NCBI RefSeq assembly: GCF_040218225.1
Contig: NZ_JAVJQO010000002.1
Span: forward strand, 1-64,000
Origin: Gracilimonas sp.
Lineage (GTDB): Bacteria; Bacteroidota; Rhodothermia; Balneolales; Balneolaceae
DNA length: 64,000 nt
Direction of reading: 5' to 3'
Shown here piece by piece: positions 3,353-60,464 of the stretch. Positions within the stretch are counted from its first letter, which is position 1; every line of letters starts with the position of its first letter. Position numbers and translations under genes: made by a program. The notes under the pieces were generated by a model. The model did not search any database. It was not told the origin of the DNA and worked only from the letters and a program-made list of their open reading frames with translations.

Positions 3353-3380
3353 GTGATCGTGATGTAGTTTTTAGGTTAAA

Positions 3381-3429
3381 TCTAAATACTCACATCTAAA
3401 ATCAAACGTCTAACATCTAACCTTAAAAC
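3381..3429. repeat. array of seven degenerate heptamers
   Basis: Read in 7-base steps from 3381 the units are TCTAAAT, ACTCACA, TCTAAAA and so on to TTAAAAC. Four of the seven start TCTAA and the register is exact. The array runs into the stop codon of the RND gene (3423-3425). It shares the period, not the sequence, with the arrays at 36040 and 57879. No inverted partner was seen nearby. Confidence 0.65.
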
Positions 3430-5918
3430 CGAATCCAGTCCTTGTCTTCCAGCCATTGGATAAGCGCAGGCAGAAAAGTAATCGAGGTAAGCAAAGTCAT
3501 GCCAATTCCCAATACCGCCATCACCCCTATCGACTGTAAGCCCGGATGGTTGGTAAACAGCAGTCCGGCAAAACCCAGCATGGTGGTCACCGAGCCCATG
3601 GTAATATGCTGACCGGTACTCGACAGCACCTGCCACATGCTGTTCTTCCCTTCTTCGCGATAACGGTGTGCAAGGTGAACGCCACTGTCTTCCCCAATTC
3701 CCAGAATGGCCGGAAGCACCACCAGGTTGTAGAAGTTAAACTGTAGCCCGAAGATCATCATGATGCCAAACAGCCAGAGCAATCCCACCAAAAGCGGAAG
3801 CATGGCCATCAGCGACCAGCGGAACGACCGGAAGGAAAACAGCATGAAGAAGTAAATAAAAATGAACGTAGCTCCTACCATATATGGACTTTCGGTTCGC
3901 ATCAGGTCGAGCATAGACGCTGCTACAATGGAAGTACTGGCAGCATGGAATTTCTCTCCGCTGTCCAGTTTCACTACGGCGACATCGTTTTTAAAGGCAA
4001 TGGATTGCCGGCCGTCTCCCAGTCCCACCGATGGATAGACAATCACAAAACGGCCCACTTCTCCATCTTTGGTGATAAACCGGGACTTCAGGTAATTCGG
4101 GATAGAATCTAACGAAACAGGCTCGGTGGTTTGGGCAGCCTGTCGCAGCTTATCCAGGTCTTCATCGTCCTGCTCTACCAAAAACGGATCACGCAATAAT
4201 TCACGGATTTCAGCAATTCGCTGAAGTTTCTGCTCCTCTTCCTCTTTACTGGTCGGGTAGCGTTCCTGTAGTGTCTCCACGCTTTGGATGGTCGGCGAAG
4301 TGGTGTCCGAACGCATGCGCTCTTTCAAAATGGCGGCAATCTCTTCCACCTGATCATTATCTTCTGCTACGATGTAAGCGGGATTTCGTTTGCTGTTGTC
4401 ATCTACCTGTCCGGCAAAAGACCGGAATTCTTCATACTCAGGGAAGGTGGGTTCCAGCTCGCCAAAGTCATACTGGAAGCGGAGGTTACCGCTGAAACCG
4501 ATGACAAAGGCAGAGGCAACCAATCCCACTGTGACAATGGTTTTAGCAAATGGATAGCGATGTACGCCGGTGTATTCTTCTTTGGTATCGTCGGAGATAA
4601 GGATCCAGTTTAATCTTTCATCAAAAATAACCAGCAACGCCGGAAGGATATACAACATGGCCATCAAAGCGAGTAAAATCCCTGTTCCGGATATAAAACC
4701 GAATTCGGAGAATCCGCGGAAATCAGCAAACATCAGGATATACAGAGCCGCGGCCGTGGTAAATGCAGATACCAGGATTGCTTCCCCGGTCTTCTCGTTG
4801 GTTCTCATCACGGCATCATGGGCGTTCATTCCCATAGAACGCAATTCAATGTAGCGGGCGTAATAGTGAATTCCGTAATCGATCCCCAGCCCAAACAGAA
4901 TTACAAAAAGTACCGAGGTCATCGTATTCAAAATTCCCAAATAAAAATAGGTGATTCCAAACGTCCAGGTCAGGCTAATCAGCAAAGGCACTCCGATAAT
5001 TAAAACAGGAACCGGCATCCGGATAAAGTGCGACCACACCGAATATTTCCCCCGTCCATTGGTTCCTTTCCGGTAGTGGATGTATTTCTTGAAAAAGAAG
5101 TACAGCATCACCAACAGAATCACACTGCTGATTCCGCTGGCAAAACTTCCCAATACATCGTTCATGATGGATGTCAGCTCTTCAAGGTGACGTTTTAACC
5201 TTCCCCCAAAGCGAACTTCCATGTCCGGATGGTAAGCCTGTGGATTCATGGAAGACAGCAGAGAATCATATTCAGCAAACATATCCTCCAGGTATTTAAT
5301 ATCACTCTTGGACCCGGTTGGGTAAAACTTCACCACCATAATGGTGCTGTCTTCATTAACCGGGTATTCGGAAGGCACCAGCATGTTATAGCTGTCCTCA
5401 AAGTTTTCTGCACCGGTACTCTCTTCCTCCTCTTCATCTCCAAGATCAAAATAAAAGGGGTTGGCTTCTTCTTTAGCCTGCTGTATCTCGTCCTCAAGAA
5501 ATTGCGTGACTTCATCCAGTTCTTTGTTGCTGGCTAAATAAAGAGCATTATCTTTTACAAACTCGGTTTCCCGGCGGAATTCAGCCCGCTTGAAGAACGT
5601 ATCTTGATACCGGGGATAATATAAATCCAGCGAGCGCTGAATAAGCGTATCGGCAAACGCTTTATTGGCTTCAAAACTCGGAGAGTTGATAACCACCAGC
5701 ATTTCAGTTTCACCACCTACTGTTTCGCTAAGCTTTTCCAGGGCTAAAACATTGGGATGATCTTCGGGAAGCAGATTAGCTATATCGGTATCAACCTTAA
5801 GCTGAAGTGCATAATAACCGCTCAAAACAGCCAGCACAATACAAATGGAAACGACCCAATATGGATGAGAGTAATTGAATTTTAATAGTGGCTTGAAAAG
5901 CCGCAGAAGTTGTTTCAT
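3423..5918 (-). CDS. RND-superfamily MMPL-type exporter
   Basis: This 831-residue inner-membrane protein has two similar halves. Each has one membrane segment, a large periplasmic loop and a block of about five membrane helices. The first block (about residues 250-430) carries GLGIDYGIHYYARY and the second (about 680-825) carries GIGEDSGVHLAHRY, the conserved Asp-containing motif of MMPL and sterol-sensing-domain exporters. These proteins use the proton gradient to move lipids or other hydrophobic compounds to the outer envelope. No membrane-fusion protein or TolC is adjacent, which fits the MMPL/HpnN type rather than AcrB. It is divergent from two secreted CrtC-like genes. The substrate is unknown. 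Confidence 0.9.
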   Translation of the reverse strand: MKQLLRLFKPLLKFNYSHPYWVVSICIVLAVLSGYYALQLKVDTDIANLLPEDHPNVLALEKLSETVGGETEMLVVINSPSFEANKAFADTLIQRSLDLYYPRYQDTFFKRAEFRRETEFVKDNALYLASNKELDEVTQFLEDEIQQAKEEANPFYFDLGDEEEEESTGAENFEDSYNMLVPSEYPVNEDSTIMVVKFYPTGSKSDIKYLEDMFAEYDSLLSSMNPQAYHPDMEVRFGGRLKRHLEELTSIMNDVLGSFASGISSVILLVMLYFFFKKYIHYRKGTNGRGKYSVWSHFIRMPVPVLIIGVPLLISLTWTFGITYFYLGILNTMTSVLFVILFGLGIDYGIHYYARYIELRSMGMNAHDAVMRTNEKTGEAILVSAFTTAAALYILMFADFRGFSEFGFISGTGILLALMAMLYILPALLVIFDERLNWILISDDTKEEYTGVHRYPFAKTIVTVGLVASAFVIGFSGNLRFQYDFGELEPTFPEYEEFRSFAGQVDDNSKRNPAYIVAEDNDQVEEIAAILKERMRSDTTSPTIQSVETLQERYPTSKEEEEQKLQRIAEIRELLRDPFLVEQDDEDLDKLRQAAQTTEPVSLDSIPNYLKSRFITKDGEVGRFVIVYPSVGLGDGRQSIAFKNDVAVVKLDSGEKFHAASTSIVAASMLDLMRTESPYMVGATFIFIYFFMLFSFRSFRWSLMAMLPLLVGLLWLFGIMMIFGLQFNFYNLVVLPAILGIGEDSGVHLAHRYREEGKNSMWQVLSSTGQHITMGSVTTMLGFAGLLFTNHPGLQSIGVMAVLGIGMTLLTSITFLPALIQWLEDKDWIRF

Positions 5919-35069: not shown

Positions 35070-35369
35070 GTAATTTCCTGGCAAAAATAAAGGTTCGATA
35101 GCGCTCGAATATAGGCAGTGAAGAGTGAATCAATCAAAGATTAATTCTTCCGATTTCTGTAAGCCAGGTAATTCATACGATTCTATAACCGATTTTTACA
35201 AATCAACCAAGGCCTGTCTTTTTTTAATAATGTTCCAATTCTACTTCTATTTAAGGGCTGGGAAATGTTACACAAGTAACGAAGCAAACATCTTTTATAT
35301 ATTCTACTTATCCAGTAATCATTGAACTAGCCCCCTATCAATAACCCGCCAAAATCCTTAAACTTGGAC

Positions 35370-36035
35370 ATGGACTGGATCCGGAGTACACTCACTATTT
35401 TAAAGAAAGACCTGCAGATTGAACTGCGCACCCGTTTTGCCTTCAATATGGTATTGGCATTCGTGGCTGCGGCTATGCTTCTGGTTCTTTTCACCCTTCG
35501 GGCCGATCAGCTTGAACCTGGCCCTAAATCTGGTTTGGTATGGATTATCATTCTGTTTGCAGCACTTTCTGCTCTGAGCCGTAGTTTTATCGCAGAGACT
35601 GATAAAAAAACTTTTGACCTGCTTCGTATCTATGCAGAGGGAACCACGGTTTATACCGGAAAACTGCTTTACAATTTTCTTTTTACTCTCCTGATAAATA
35701 TCGCCACCTTTATGGGTTATATTTTCCTCATGGGTTTAGAAATTCAATCCTGGCCAGCTTTTTTAGTTATGCTTTTTATAGGTACTGCAGGCTTATCAGG
35801 GGTGGCAACCATGACAGCAGCTGTAGTTTCACAAGCCGATCGCAAAGGAGCAATTTTCTCCGTACTCAGTATACCGCTATTTATGCCGCTGGTGCTTTTA
35901 CTGGCCGACATAAGTAAAACCGCCTTTATTAGTGGCGGAGACGGCTCTATGAACAACGTAGCGGCTCTGGTCGGATTTGCAGGCGCCACCATAACCGCTG
36001 GCATTTTACTTTTTGATTACATTTGGGAAGAATGA
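35370..36035 (+). CDS. ccmB: haem exporter subunit CcmB
   Basis: This protein of about 221 residues has six predicted membrane helices. The N-terminus TILKKDLQIELRTRFAFNMVLAF and LSALSRSFIAETDKKTFDLLRIYAEG are characteristic of CcmB, the membrane subunit of the CcmAB transporter that powers haem release to CcmE. The ATG at 35370 is used; a TTG two codons upstream exists. No ccmA is adjacent, and ccmF-E-D-C lie 22 kb away, so the pathway is split. A heptamer array starts 5 bases after its stop codon. Confidence 0.92.
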   Translation: MDWIRSTLTILKKDLQIELRTRFAFNMVLAFVAAAMLLVLFTLRADQLEPGPKSGLVWIIILFAALSALSRSFIAETDKKTFDLLRIYAEGTTVYTGKLLYNFLFTLLINIATFMGYIFLMGLEIQSWPAFLVMLFIGTAGLSGVATMTAAVVSQADRKGAIFSVLSIPLFMPLVLLLADISKTAFISGGDGSMNNVAALVGFAGATITAGILLFDYIWEE

Positions 36036-36039
36036 TAAC

Positions 36040-36088
36040 GACCGATGACGGTAGACGAACGACTATTGACTGTTGATCAACGATAAAC
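36040..36088. repeat. left heptamer array flanking the four-helix-bundle gene
   Basis: These are seven consecutive 7-base units in exact register, five starting GAC (GACCGAT, GACGGTA, GACGAAC and two more) and the last two GAT. Bases 36041-36063 match the reverse complement of 36506-36528 at 22 of 23 positions, so the arrays form terminal inverted repeats around the gene. Confidence 0.85.
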
Positions 36089-36100
36089 CCTTTAACTGAT

Positions 36101-36499
36101 ATGGCTTTTAAGTTTGAGAAACTGGAAACTTGGCAATTGGCTATTAATTTGGCTGATGAAATTTATCATTTGATAGAAGACTTGCCTGATTCCGAAAAGT
36201 TTAATCTAAAATCTCAAGTTCAACGTGCTGTAACTTCTATTTCATTGAATATAGCTGAGGGTTCAACGGGTCAAACTGACCCTGAACAAATTAGATTTAT
36301 TGGTTATGCTCATCGCTCTCTAATGGAGGTAGTTGCTTGTTTGATTCTTATGAAAAAGAGAGCTTATATAGATGAAGAAAAGTTTAAAGCTCTGTATAAA
36401 GATTCAGAAAAACTCTCAGCAAAATTATCAGCAATGAAGAATTATCTTAAAAGTAATAATCAGGCAAATGACTTTGACGAAAGCTACGAAATTGAATAA
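36101..36499 (+). CDS. four-helix-bundle protein (23S rRNA IVS/S23 type)
   Basis: This 132-residue soluble protein matches the four-helix-bundle family first noted in intervening sequences of 23S rRNA genes: FKFEKLETWQLAINLADEIY, KFNLKSQVQRAVTSISLNIAEG, RFIGYAHRSLMEVVACLIL. Family members occur in many Bacteroidota genomes as isolated genes, and the related Avd protein binds nucleic acid in diversity-generating retroelements. It lies between ccmB and holB, unrelated in function, and is bracketed by inverted heptamer arrays (36040-36088 and 36502-36536). It reads as a small mobile unit rather than part of either neighbour. No catalytic motif is visible. Confidence 0.92.
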   Translation: MAFKFEKLETWQLAINLADEIYHLIEDLPDSEKFNLKSQVQRAVTSISLNIAEGSTGQTDPEQIRFIGYAHRSLMEVVACLILMKKRAYIDEEKFKALYKDSEKLSAKLSAMKNYLKSNNQANDFDESYEIE

Positions 36500-36501
36500 A
36501 C

Positions 36502-36536
36502 GTTGGTCGTTCGTCTACCGTCATTGGTCACTCGTC
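36502..36536. repeat. right heptamer array flanking the four-helix-bundle gene
   Basis: These are five 7-base units in exact register, each ending GTC on the plus strand, so each starts GAC on the minus strand. It begins 3 bases after the stop codon of the four-helix-bundle gene and is the inverted partner of the left array. It also supplies a spurious open frame into holB. Confidence 0.85.
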
Positions 36537-36553: not shown

Positions 36554-37735
36554 ATGAACATTAAATTCGGAAATCGAAGAATAATAGGACAAAGCCGAGC
36601 TAAAGAGCAGGTAGAACGCATGCTTTCCTCAGAGCGTATAAGCCATGCATATCTTCTTTCCGGCCCATCTGGTGTGGGTAAAACTGCATTTGCGCTTGCG
36701 TTTGCCGAAGCCATTAACGGAATTGATCACCTTAGTGACTTAGGAGAGCATAAAACCTCAAAAAAGTCTTCCTGGTTCACCCATCCGGATATCCATGTCT
36801 TCATTCCCAAACCAACTTCGGCTAAAACGGAAGAACTAAGAGATCGGCTGGAGTTGCTTTCTAAAGACCCATATGAAATCATCGATTTTTCACAGCGTCC
36901 TTCTCTTGATGATGAGTCTTCCAAAAACCTTCAGGCATTTTATCCTATTGATTATTTCCGGGATGATATTCGGCCTATAGCCAAACTAAAGCCCAACGAA
37001 GGAAACCGTGCGGTCATCATTCTCACCCAGGTTGAGACGATGCGTAAGGAAACTGCCAATGCCTTTTTAAAACTATTGGAAGAACCTTCTGACCGGCTCA
37101 TGTTTATCCTGACTACCGAAAGCTATGAAAGCCTCCTTCCTACCATCACTTCACGCTGCCAGCATATTCCTCTTGGGGCTTTGAAAGATAAGGAAGTAGA
37201 ACAGGGCTTAATTGAAGTGGACGGACTGGAACCGGATGCTGCTGCTTATCTGGCTCGTGTCTCAAATGGTAATTATGCAATGACCCGCTTTTTTGATGTA
37301 TCTAAACTCAAGGAAAACCGGGAATCAGTTGTTGAGTACTTAAGGATGGCTTTCAGCCAGGATGCAAATGGACTTTCTACCCTGGTTCAGGACTGGCAAA
37401 GTTCACATAATATTGAGGGTTTGATTGCTATGACCAATCTGATTGAAATGTACATCAGAGATTTGATGGTCTATCGGGAAACCGGGAATAAAAAATTTGT
37501 GACCAATATTGATCAGTTGGAATCGATCCAGAAATTCGTAAAGGCTTTGGATGATGCACGGCTGGAAGAAATGATTACCCATCTGGATGAATTTCGTCCT
37601 GCCCTTCGCCAAAATGTAAACCCTAAGCTCATATTTATTGTTTTAGCTCTTAGATTTTCAACCCTAATGAGAGGACTAGATCCCGTCATACCGGATGAAG
37701 AAAACTGGAAACATGTACCTGCTTTTGTAGAATAG
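36554..37735 (+). CDS. holB: DNA polymerase III delta' subunit
   Basis: This 393-residue protein has RIIGQSRAKEQVERMLSSERISHAYLL, Walker A GPSGVGKTAFA, NRAVIILTQVETMRKETANAFLKLLEEP and the SRC motif in TITSRCQHIPL. Those fit the clamp-loader delta' subunit, which with delta and tau opens the sliding clamp. The ATG at 36554 is the right start: the in-frame upstream part comes from the heptamer array and has no similarity to the family. dapF follows 3 bases downstream. Confidence 0.9.
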   Translation: MNIKFGNRRIIGQSRAKEQVERMLSSERISHAYLLSGPSGVGKTAFALAFAEAINGIDHLSDLGEHKTSKKSSWFTHPDIHVFIPKPTSAKTEELRDRLELLSKDPYEIIDFSQRPSLDDESSKNLQAFYPIDYFRDDIRPIAKLKPNEGNRAVIILTQVETMRKETANAFLKLLEEPSDRLMFILTTESYESLLPTITSRCQHIPLGALKDKEVEQGLIEVDGLEPDAAAYLARVSNGNYAMTRFFDVSKLKENRESVVEYLRMAFSQDANGLSTLVQDWQSSHNIEGLIAMTNLIEMYIRDLMVYRETGNKKFVTNIDQLESIQKFVKALDDARLEEMITHLDEFRPALRQNVNPKLIFIVLALRFSTLMRGLDPVIPDEENWKHVPAFVE

Positions 37736-57246: not shown

Positions 57247-57945
57247 TTAAAAGTTAAACCGAAGATTAGCTGTTATCGCAGGCTGACCAAAAGTATCTAC
57301 ATAAGTAAAGCTAGCTTCAGGTACATTTTCTGCAAGATCTCGGGCATGAATAAAAGCACTGATACCGCTTACCATCCTGTTGGCTACCATAAGCGCTACT
57401 AAAGTGGGTAACTGACTGCGGTTACGTTCCACACGCTCTCTCGCATCCTGATACTGAAACCTTTGCGCTGTGCTTTCCCAACTCCATTGATTTGCAGGAG
57501 TATCCGGAATAACCTGATCCCAATTTCGTGTCCGGAGCTGTGCATCGTTGTAAGCAGAAAGGTTATCATAATTACCCACAGCGATAATATAATCTCTGGA
57601 TTTACCGGAGAGATTGGTGCTAGCTTTCGCTTGAGCAAAGGTGTAGTAATCCTGCTCTAAATAATTCGCGCGGGCATTAAGCCCAAAATATGAAAGAACC
57701 AGTACTACTTCCCCCGCAAGGTGATACTTGCCCCGATTCCAGTTATCATTATCGGCGTAATAATGTCCCCATCCCGGAACTGCCAGAGATCGCAGAAAAG
57801 CTCCACGTGGCGATGGAAGGTCTTCTTTTTGCTGAGCCCTAATATCGGTTCCCGTAGAAAATAGTAGTGCAAAAAGAATAATGAATATAGAATATTCAAC
57901 TTTGAATGTTGATCTGATCCGGAGCTCTAAAGTATTTGACTTCAT
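57247..57945 (-). CDS. DUF5683-like membrane-associated protein
   Basis: This 232-residue protein is marked by SLAVPGWGHYYADNDNWNRGKYHLAGEVVLVL, a segment seen in the DUF5683 family, followed by NYDNLSAYNDAQLRTRNW and a C-terminal VDTFGQPAITANLRFNF. A signal peptide or membrane helix (IFIILFALLFSTGTDIRAQ) is at the start. The first 24 residues before it are coded by a heptamer array at 57879-57913, so the gene's own start may have been altered. The function of the family is unknown to me. Confidence 0.65.
   Translation of the reverse strand: MKSNTLELRIRSTFKVEYSIFIILFALLFSTGTDIRAQQKEDLPSPRGAFLRSLAVPGWGHYYADNDNWNRGKYHLAGEVVLVLSYFGLNARANYLEQDYYTFAQAKASTNLSGKSRDYIIAVGNYDNLSAYNDAQLRTRNWDQVIPDTPANQWSWESTAQRFQYQDARERVERNRSQLPTLVALMVANRMVSGISAFIHARDLAENVPEASFTYVDTFGQPAITANLRFNF
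57879..57913. repeat. heptamer array inside the 5' end of the DUF5683-like gene
   Basis: These are five 7-base units in exact register on the plus strand: TAATGAA, TATAGAA, TATTCAA and two more. It is the inverted partner, in pattern, of 57941-57982. On the minus strand it codes for part of the signal-peptide region (STFKVEYSIFIIL). Confidence 0.75.
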
Positions 57946-57982
57946 TATTCTGTGTTCAACATTGATTATTCATTATTCTTTT
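57941..57982. repeat. heptamer array across the ccmF end and the DUF5683-like start
   Basis: These are six 7-base units in exact register: TTCATTA, TTCTGTG, TTCAACA and three more, all starting TT. It spans the start codon of the DUF5683-like gene (57943-57945) and the ccmF stop (57966-57968). Confidence 0.8.
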
Positions 57983-60464
57983 TCCGTTCTCTGCCCCAAT
58001 GTCGGAAAATCGAAATGCTAAATCCAGCCATCAGAATAAATGTTCCTGCCCATACCACAGATATAAACGGTTTCTCATCCGCCACAATAAGCACCCATTC
58101 CGGCTCATATTCTTCCTCAAGTCCGGTTACCGTTAGTTCAATATTGTTTTCCTGAGGGTTTATTTGGGTGAATTGAAATTCAAGATCAAAGTCTGGAACC
58201 CGGGCTGGCGGTGAATAGATGTAGCTTTGCCCGTCTTGGCTGTAAACAGCAAAAAGGGGTTCAAGAGTGATGACTCGATTGCTGGCAGGATGCATCAACT
58301 CAACCTGTGCTTTAACACCAATGGTCGTATTTGGCGGAAGTTCGGAAGTATCTGTTCTGGCATAGCTCACAAACCTGATTTTAAACTTGCCCACATCAAT
58401 AGTCTGACCCGGGTTTAGTTTAATTTTTTGAACTTCAGGTGTATCTGTTCCAGAGGTATCTTGCAGGGATGCATTTTGCATCATCCGGCGATTTTCACTG
58501 GCCCGGTCGTTTTGTTCCTGTACATATGAACTACCACCTACATATAAATAAATATCACTTAGCAATCCTGTTCTCACATCCGGATCTACCGACCATTGGA
58601 TATTCTCGGCAGTGGAAGTTGTCAGCATCGGATACACTTCCGGATTCATATAGAAAGTCTTGCCACCATCAACCGGCTCAAACTTAATTTTATAGGTTTG
58701 CTGTCCCCTGCGGATTGAATTGTCAAGTTCGTACCCTTCATAAGTCACAACATATCTGGAGTCTACTATAACCGGCTCATTCAGATTTAACAATAGCATT
58801 TCTTCTTTTTGGGTGACTTTAAAGCCTTGTTCATCCGTCACCTCTCCCCGTTCTACCGCGGTGTTATAGTTCGCTGTTTTCTGATCCACCAGATAGGAAT
58901 TATATGCAGATGAAGCTAAAATTCCGACCAAAAGTAATCCAAAACCGATGTGTGTAAGTGAACCCCCAATGAGCTTAGGATTCTGCATTGTTAAACGCAC
59001 CAGAACCCAGGCATTCCCTACCACAGCGAAGTACCCGCAAAAGAGATACACCATGTAGTAGATGTTCCGTACATCTCCAAGAATGATGGACAGGATAGTT
59101 ACCGCACTCGTAACCAGTAAGGGACTAATCAGAGCTGATGCCAGAGATTCAGCGTCATATTTTTTCCAGAAAAGGTACTGTCCCAACACCGTAAAGATGG
59201 CCATTATCATAGCAATGGGCATACTCCAGTCGTTATAAAAACTTATTTCCGGGGGAGTGGGATTTTCTACAAATAATTTACCGATAATCGGAGAACTGGT
59301 TCCTAAAATAATAACCAGGCCAAGTATGAGAAGCAGCATCGCTCCGGTGACCGTCATAAATTCACGGCTCAGGAATTTAGCTTCTTTATCTGGTGAAGGA
59401 AGCTCCTTGTACCTCCAAAAGAAGAGCCCCAGACCTACTCCGGTTACTACTACCATAAAAGCCAGCAGCTGATTGTACAATCCTAAATCCACGAAACTGT
59501 GAACGGATGAACTTCCCAGAATTCCGGATCGAGTCAGAAAGGTTTCATAAACAATTGCTACGTAAGCAAGTATGGCAAACAGAATCGATGATTTTTGAGC
59601 CACTGAGCTCTTACGTTGAATAATCATAGTGTGAATGCCCGCCGTACCGATCAGCCATGGAACCAGGGATGCATTTTCAACCGGATCCCAAGCCCAATAA
59701 CCTCCGAATGAAAGCGTGACGTATGCCCAATATCCCCCGAGAAAAATGGCGGTCAGTAAAGCTACATTTGCACTCAGTGTCCAAGGAAGTGCCGGCCCAA
59801 TCCACTCATTATACTTTTGCTTCCACAGCGCGGCCATGGCAAAGCAGTACGGGATGGTCATCATCGCAAAACCCACAAATAATATAGGCGGATGAATCAT
59901 CATCCAGGGGCTTTTTAGCAAATCATTTAAGCCGCTTCCATCCTGTGGAACAAAATCAGGATTAGTTTGCAGAAACGGAGCATTTGGCATTTCTTCAGCG
60001 ATGGTTCGGAATGGTGAGGCTCCCAGTTTTAGCCCAAAAATATCCCATCCCAAAAGCATGGATAATAAGAATACCTGTGTAAGTGTCAGGAAGAAAAGCA
60101 CCGGAGCCTTATATGGTTCCCTCGTCCACTTCATCAACCCAAAACCAAAGAAAGCGGAAATGAGAATCCAGAGCATGAAACTGCCTTCCTGCCCTCCATA
60201 AAAAGCTGACCAGAGATAACGCGGGGCTAAATCAAGACTGGTATAATTGAATACATAATAATATTGAAACTGATGCTGGAAAATCAGATAAACCAGGATT
60301 CCGGAAGCAACAACAAGAAAAGCTGCTTTTGTGGCAAACAGCCAGTTGCCCACTTTCAGGGTTCTGTTTTCATCCCGGTTTGCTGAAATGAAATAGAAGA
60401 TCATGGCCGCCAGAGAAGTTACAAAAGAAGCGGAGATCAGGATTTTACCAATTGTTCCTAGCAT
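57966..60464 (-). CDS. ccmF: cytochrome c haem lyase CcmF
   Basis: This 832-residue membrane protein has the tryptophan-rich WWD domain in FGGYWAWDPVENASLVPWL and the typical CcmF helix pattern, then a C-terminal periplasmic domain of about 250 residues, longer than in E. coli CcmF (647). CcmF takes haem from CcmE and ligates it to apocytochrome c. The last codons lie in a heptamer array. It is 9 bases from ccmE. Confidence 0.95.
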   Translation of the reverse strand: MLGTIGKILISASFVTSLAAMIFYFISANRDENRTLKVGNWLFATKAAFLVVASGILVYLIFQHQFQYYYVFNYTSLDLAPRYLWSAFYGGQEGSFMLWILISAFFGFGLMKWTREPYKAPVLFFLTLTQVFLLSMLLGWDIFGLKLGASPFRTIAEEMPNAPFLQTNPDFVPQDGSGLNDLLKSPWMMIHPPILFVGFAMMTIPYCFAMAALWKQKYNEWIGPALPWTLSANVALLTAIFLGGYWAYVTLSFGGYWAWDPVENASLVPWLIGTAGIHTMIIQRKSSVAQKSSILFAILAYVAIVYETFLTRSGILGSSSVHSFVDLGLYNQLLAFMVVVTGVGLGLFFWRYKELPSPDKEAKFLSREFMTVTGAMLLLILGLVIILGTSSPIIGKLFVENPTPPEISFYNDWSMPIAMIMAIFTVLGQYLFWKKYDAESLASALISPLLVTSAVTILSIILGDVRNIYYMVYLFCGYFAVVGNAWVLVRLTMQNPKLIGGSLTHIGFGLLLVGILASSAYNSYLVDQKTANYNTAVERGEVTDEQGFKVTQKEEMLLLNLNEPVIVDSRYVVTYEGYELDNSIRRGQQTYKIKFEPVDGGKTFYMNPEVYPMLTTSTAENIQWSVDPDVRTGLLSDIYLYVGGSSYVQEQNDRASENRRMMQNASLQDTSGTDTPEVQKIKLNPGQTIDVGKFKIRFVSYARTDTSELPPNTTIGVKAQVELMHPASNRVITLEPLFAVYSQDGQSYIYSPPARVPDFDLEFQFTQINPQENNIELTVTGLEEEYEPEWVLIVADEKPFISVVWAGTFILMAGFSISIFRHWGRERKKNNE

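Follow-up and report, generated by a model that had tools for sequence, protein, structure and literature searches.

A PF05635 gene between inverted heptamer arrays in Gracilimonas sp., a probable operon-junction version of the 23S rRNA intervening sequence

The ccmB–holB junction

The window, by which we mean the whole 64-kb stretch of Gracilimonas sp. DNA analysed, contains ccmB (35364..36035, plus strand; PF03379, E = 1.6e-20) and, downstream of it, holB, coding for the delta prime subunit of DNA polymerase III (36554..37735, plus strand; PF13177, E = 9e-36). Four bases separate the ccmB stop codon from an array of seven 7-bp units of the type GACNRNN/GATNANN (36040..36088, plus strand; lag-7 segment 36035–36089), which by unit decomposition reads GACCGAT, GACGGTA, GACGAAC, GACTATT, GACTGTT, GATCAAC, GATAAAC, with GA in phase in all seven units and GAC in five. 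A right array of five units (36502..36536, minus strand; GACGAGT, GACCAAT, GACGGTA, GACGAAC, GACCAAC on the reverse complement) runs in the opposite sense. Between the arrays lies a gene (36101..36499, plus strand) for a 132-aa four-helix-bundle protein of the 23S rRNA IVP/S23 family, which profile searches matched to TIGR02436 (E = 1e-30) and, as its sole Pfam match, to PF05635 (E = 4e-33); the protein resembles PDB entry 2gsc over nearly its full length (E = 3e-15).

A repeat search identified two inverted-repeat arms, 36040..36063 (plus strand) and 36506..36529 (minus strand), which pair at 23 of their 24 positions. The arrays, their coordinates and register, and their inverted match had been reported in a preliminary description of this DNA and are all as given there; in agreement with it, no target-site duplication is evident at the window element. 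The 17-mer GACGGTAGACGAACGAC, searched with up to three mismatches, has two matches in the 64 kb, and both are the arms; 0.06 matches are expected from the shuffle background, and none of 100 shuffles reached two. A lag scan of the window returned four segments of period 7 at three places, none for lags 5, 6, 8, 9 and 11, one each for lags 4 and 10, and three for lag 12. The feature is probably an insertion, a compact element some 500 bp long with one PF05635 gene and two inverted terminal arrays of 7-bp units.

The ccmB–holB junction was compared across relatives with HolB as the anchor. The full element is present in the window genome (G000), G001 and G007; G005 retains both arrays with an internally deleted gene, and G006 and G008 have a short left-type array only. 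The junction is empty, with a gap of about 5–10 bases, in three members of the genus (G002, G004 and G009) and in other genera (e.g. G026), and is taken by a different gene in G003 and G021. The full, internally deleted, array-only and empty states at this one site make the element a polymorphism of the genus; it probably entered the junction inside the genus. Empty sites in related genomes, which had been proposed beforehand as a check, are thus found in three species of the genus. At L036 and L040, from two species other than that of the window, the junction, read by eye, is occupied by a glycoside-hydrolase-like gene.

Against the genes of G007 and G001, that of the window genome has about 75% identity and dN/dS values of 0.06–0.07; the G007 and G001 genes share 98.0% identity, with a dN/dS of 0.16 based on few changes. 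These values (0.06–0.16, three orthologues) indicate that the window gene is under purifying selection. Such selection, and the occurrence of the gene at ccmB–holB in three species, would suit a vertically inherited host gene flanked by chance repeats; however, the empty, deleted and array-only states within the genus refute that explanation, and the chance expectation of 0.06 for the arms also speaks against it; we assign it hardly any probability. The genes neighbouring the element are 96% identical between G007 and G001, the left arrays 69% and the right arrays 74%, and the array lengths differ by exactly 21 bp, or three units, on each side. This array divergence and the 21-bp length steps, beside a gene that is 98.0% identical, mean that turnover is far quicker in the arrays than in the gene.

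Flanking arrays and insertion sites in the PF05635 family

The window genome contains 11 PF05635 hits, each with different flanking units. In four sets of elements, inverted-repeat scores of at least 12 were obtained for 6/11, 17/27, 26/68 and 44/78 members, as compared to 0/88, 0/216, 2/544 and 6/624 controls, which for this score and for lag-7 periodicity were random positions in the same loci. The lag-7 periodicity of the flanks was far above that of the controls in the four sets, with no comparable rise at lags 5, 6, 9 and 10 and a partial rise at lag 8. At least one flanking 7-base array exceeding the 99% null, which was drawn from genomes without PF05635, accompanies 148 of 184 PF05635 genes, and 82 of the 184 have arrays on both sides; the periodicity that the preliminary description had suggested seeking at the borders of other family members is therefore found there. 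Its claims that the arrays are the ends of the element and that the element was inserted are supported by the empty ccmB–holB sites, by this family-wide recurrence and by empty sites of other members (see below).

Read in the sense of the gene, left arrays are G-rich (114/128) and right arrays C-rich (89/102). On both sides the commonest array length is four units, followed by five; a fixed length of five units (pentamer × 7) was considered and, four being the commonest, is not claimed. The majority unit consensus TNAGWAN is strong in pooled IVP-flanking arrays. It was dropped as a universal unit, since the GAC array of the window element does not fit it and a comparison with the dispersed arrays showed no clear match, its total being unusable owing to an undefined value from one masked stretch.

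Similar PF05635 members were recognised by eye in Desulfobacterota, Chloroflexota, Fibrobacterota, Verrucomicrobiota and MAGs of candidate phyla. Of ten cyanobacterial or Azospirillum PF05635 hits on plasmids, nine have a clear 7-base array and/or an inverted repeat. Elements on two cyanobacterial plasmids (L397, L400) are located between cas6 and cas4 and are both flanked by heptamer arrays, inverted in one of them; the arrays of L397 are direct and form long near-perfect runs. In many Bacteroidota genera, elements recur in a single junction, the one preceding an acetyl-CoA acyltransferase-like gene, with different arrays each time. In an Anaerolineaceae MAG (L214:2300-3000), inspection by eye places an element seemingly inside a histidine-kinase coding sequence, the frame of which runs into both arrays. 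Carriage by phages was rejected, as 50,697 phage records gave no match.

Empty sites for the Nostoc, Calothrix and Azospirillum insertions were found in close relatives of approximately 85–100% identity, which in the best cases resolved the insertions to within a few bases. The repeats at these junctions are 0–7 bp long and not constant in length. A classical DDE insertion sequence or MITE has a target-site duplication of constant length; at the empty sites of these other members its counterpart spans 0–7 bp, and none was seen in the window. Related Nostoc plasmids carry independent insertions in neighbouring junctions of one operon. Among 80 elements that follow a co-directional gene whose end lies near the array, the left array starts within 10 bp of that gene's stop codon in 69; stops were sought in the array itself and in the 25 bp before it. 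Target seeding, in which units would be copied from sequence around the target's own stop codon, was not supported (24/57 concordant, p = 0.18).

Intervening sequences, arm matching and dispersed arrays

Intervening sequences (IVSs) of 23S rRNA have been known for more than 25 years, their origin and mobility being unclear, and we know of no function for the S23/IVP protein. One Azospirillum PF05635 hit lies inside 23S rRNA and has heptamer arms of the GAGGACGGATGACAGAGGACGG type; other rrn copies are free of the IVS, one of them in the same strain and with 100% identity elsewhere, and the insertion replaces a small hairpin. This IVS ties the operon elements directly to the classical IVSs. The 23S IVS of Coxiella burnetii has been shown to be excised by RNase III; its terminal stem measures 28 bp, and two to three tandem heptamers (GACAGAT) stand beside the ORF (PMC4990558). 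The IVSs of Coxiella and Azospirillum share with the window element a PF05635-family ORF between terminal inverted repeats, a length of about 430–500 bp, patchy presence and tandem heptamers beside the ORF, whereas the window element is located between two protein genes and not in rRNA. With its PF05635/TIGR02436 ORF and long-stem terminal inverted repeats, and its position outside any rRNA gene, the window element is of the IVS type by membership except for location, and it is probably the operon-junction version of the 23S rRNA intervening sequence.

The excision of the Coxiella IVS and the heptamer arms of the Azospirillum IVS also speak for the main rival explanation, an IVS acting at the level of RNA, in which the inverted arrays would be retained because they form a stem in the transcript that RNase III cuts, limiting harm to the operon or rRNA; the protein would then be a bystander or have RNA as its target. 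The window element is indeed predicted to fold into a 26-bp terminal stem with the ORF in the loop (z = -5.3); this score does not discriminate, because any inverted repeat in DNA folds anyway. Selection on RNA pairing would be expected to favour G-U over A-C mismatches, but the arms of 148 elements have 129 G-U and 166 A-C mismatches; in the absence of a G-U excess, RNA pairing is apparently not under selection. Moreover, period 7 plays no part in this explanation, which we consider unlikely, albeit the strongest of the rivals.

The summed match score between the two arms of the same element was 2358, as compared to 1353 (SD 22) with partners permuted, a difference of 45 SD, which indicates that the two arms match each other and not a common sequence. 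The unit sequence of the arrays also covaries with the protein sequence across species (Mantel r = 0.22–0.25), and the correlation persists when pairs with homologous flanking genes are removed (r = 0.159, p = 0.001). Of all the results, this covariation speaks most strongly for a reading of the unit by the protein; host relatedness may contribute, the similarity of arrays or of proteins possibly following it in part.

Gene-free arrays were detected at 25 loci in 746 kb of PF05635-positive slices, which contain only two PF05635 genes, and at none in 1149 kb of PF05635-negative slices from 20 genomes, which lean to other classes and to higher G+C, half of them having less than 50% G+C. Arrays were rare when the slices were scanned at other periods. 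Two whole-genome array patterns were found in 18 and 10 of 116 PF05635-positive genomes and in 2 and 1 of 32 negative ones; with hits in 3/32 negative genomes, the association between the gene and dispersed arrays has exceptions. In the window, the lag scan and the comparison within the genus revealed a gene-free pair of inverted heptamer arrays at an operon junction (57864..57999, unstranded). Most species of the genus have such a pair at this place, the unit sequences differing between species. The left array of the window pair is apparently translated, on the minus strand, into the signal-peptide region of the ORF 57247-57945. A solo array of ATCTAAC-like units (3376..3439, unstranded; lag scan) lies at the stop codon of the ORF 3423-5918 on the minus strand. 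Five similar heptamer arrays occur within 8 kb at the start of a G006 contig (L316:497-8008).

Heptamer arrays without a partner gene have been described before: TAACTGA arrays in Beggiatoaceae, Cyanobacteria and Bacteroidetes (PMC4679880), and GGGAATC arrays in Xanthomonas and Nostoc (PMC4692102). They resemble the present arrays in their 7-bp period, intergenic location, variable copy number and frequent inverted pairing (70 cases in X. campestris), but no partner protein was named for them, whereas the present arrays bracket PF05635 genes and covary with them. These reports and the gene-free arrays, including those of the window, could mean that the arrays arise on their own as simple repeats prone to slippage, or as regulatory repeats, and that PF05635 genes merely sit in repeat-rich junctions. 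Such repeats, however, would not account for arrays that are present at both ends, inverted and matched within the element, for their polarity, for the absence of arrays from PF05635-negative slices and the rarity of other periods, or for the covariation with the protein, and we regard this explanation as improbable, about half as credible as an RNA-level IVS.

A promoter-like motif, the proposed mechanism and its meaning

A promoter-like motif, nearly always GTAAGGA-N14-GCTCTTA, has 119 occurrences in ten genomes of the genus and none in the reversed control. It is located 24–119 bp upstream of 35 PF05635 hits, on the same strand and in no other nearby orientation, where about 0.05 would be expected; 35 of the 119 PF05635 hits in the genus thus sit just downstream of it. 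The 38 ORFs examined downstream of the motif, among which two loci are counted twice, include 10 PF05635 genes, 9 Y1 transposases, 4 integron integrases, 4 RecQ, 4 GIY-YIG, 2 RecF and 1 ComEC. By inference from these annotations, the motif genes look like a DNA-uptake and recombination regulon, a candidate competence or recombination regulon of the genus; the motif itself may be a sigma-factor promoter or an operator. The window copy, unlike many sister copies, has no such motif upstream, and its expression therefore probably depends on read-through from the operon. At L019:3074-3101 the motif has no close ORF downstream and is accompanied by a terminator-like hairpin, possibly marking a small RNA.

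Mobilisation in trans by another member of this regulon (RAYT/IS200 Y1 transposase, integron integrase or GIY-YIG endonuclease), with the PF05635 protein as accessory or passenger, would agree with the occurrence of those enzyme genes behind the same motif. Yet the Y1, integrase and GIY-YIG genes examined beside the motif have GC-rich palindromes or no repeats, a 7-base array being found only at the right flank of one integrase, and it is the PF05635 protein with which the arrays covary; we consider this explanation improbable, marginally less so than that of ordinary repeats. The Y1 transposase genes under the motif at L088, L098, L102 and L015 have inverted repeats unlike the heptamer arrays and appear to form separate RAYT-REP-like pairs.

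An Avd-type retroelement, in which the protein would partner a reverse transcriptase that copies the element, is suggested by the resemblance of PF05635 to Avd of diversity-generating retroelements, a related four-helix-bundle family (PMC10053308), and by bAvd matches of 3 of the 38 motif-downstream proteins. An RVT_1 profile search of the window genome, which is 98.6% complete, gave no match, while the same search was positive in 3 of 14 control genomes. The analogy with Avd retroelements drawn in the preliminary description is weakened accordingly, and this explanation is disfavoured as very improbable.

The best reading of the window feature is a DNA-level element whose protein would recognise and maintain its heptamer arrays. 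We put the probability of this whole explanation, which includes the compact inserted element and its kinship with the IVSs, at roughly 0.6. The PF05635 protein would recognise its own heptamer unit in DNA, bind the arrays at both ends of the element, and maintain, copy or move arrays in cis and in trans, helped by host recombination. A relative of the protein is reportedly a homopentamer. The best candidate for strand breaking or copying is host recombination active during DNA uptake, because the motif of the 35 PF05635 hits also precedes comEC, recF, recQ and integron integrase genes. Insertions would survive mostly where they are least harmful, in the gap between the stop codon of one gene and the start of the following one. 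The data above demonstrate the insertion, its architecture, the matching of the arms, the covariation and the scattering of arrays; binding to DNA, an activity in trans and the involvement of recombination are inferred. Counting against the explanation are the array hits in PF05635-negative genomes, the possible share of host relatedness in the covariation, the misfit between TNAGWAN and the window array, the inconstant repeats at the insertion junctions, the missing motif of the window copy and the direct arrays of L397. The proposal in the preliminary description that the protein helps to mobilise or maintain the arrays is consistent with our results in a correlative sense, through the covariation and the co-occurrence in genomes, the latter with exceptions.

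Protein and dispersed arrays would thereby constitute a two-part system working like RAYT transposases with REP/REPIN repeats. In both, a protein gene is flanked by short repeats that are also dispersed without the gene, and repeat and protein covary. The element protein, however, has no Y1 (HUH) transposase domain, the repeats are 7-bp tandem units and not palindromes, and the Y1 genes of the same genus have their own, different repeats. The gene-free 7-base arrays are dispersed in the manner of REPINs, but their unit sequences differ from those of the element.

A more general reading, which we offer tentatively and at slightly less than even odds, is that PF05635 and heptamer arrays together make up a mobile or self-maintaining DNA system of two parts and wide distribution, in which the protein would recognise its own unit, keep the inverted end arrays and seed dispersed arrays in trans, and of which 23S rRNA IVSs, PF05635 genes in cas operons and several orphan heptamer repeats would all be products. 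A search of the literature, mostly open, found no paper that describes heptamer arrays as a family-wide trait of PF05635, priority being uncertain. The reading links three puzzles that have been studied apart, namely the rRNA IVSs, the four-helix-bundle protein and the scattered 7-base arrays. PF05635 genes have been recorded as a cas-associated function (PMC3936711); if the link holds, this suggests that these genes would be inserted elements, and IVSs, the S23/IVP protein and heptamer repeats would be one system with a directly testable mechanism.
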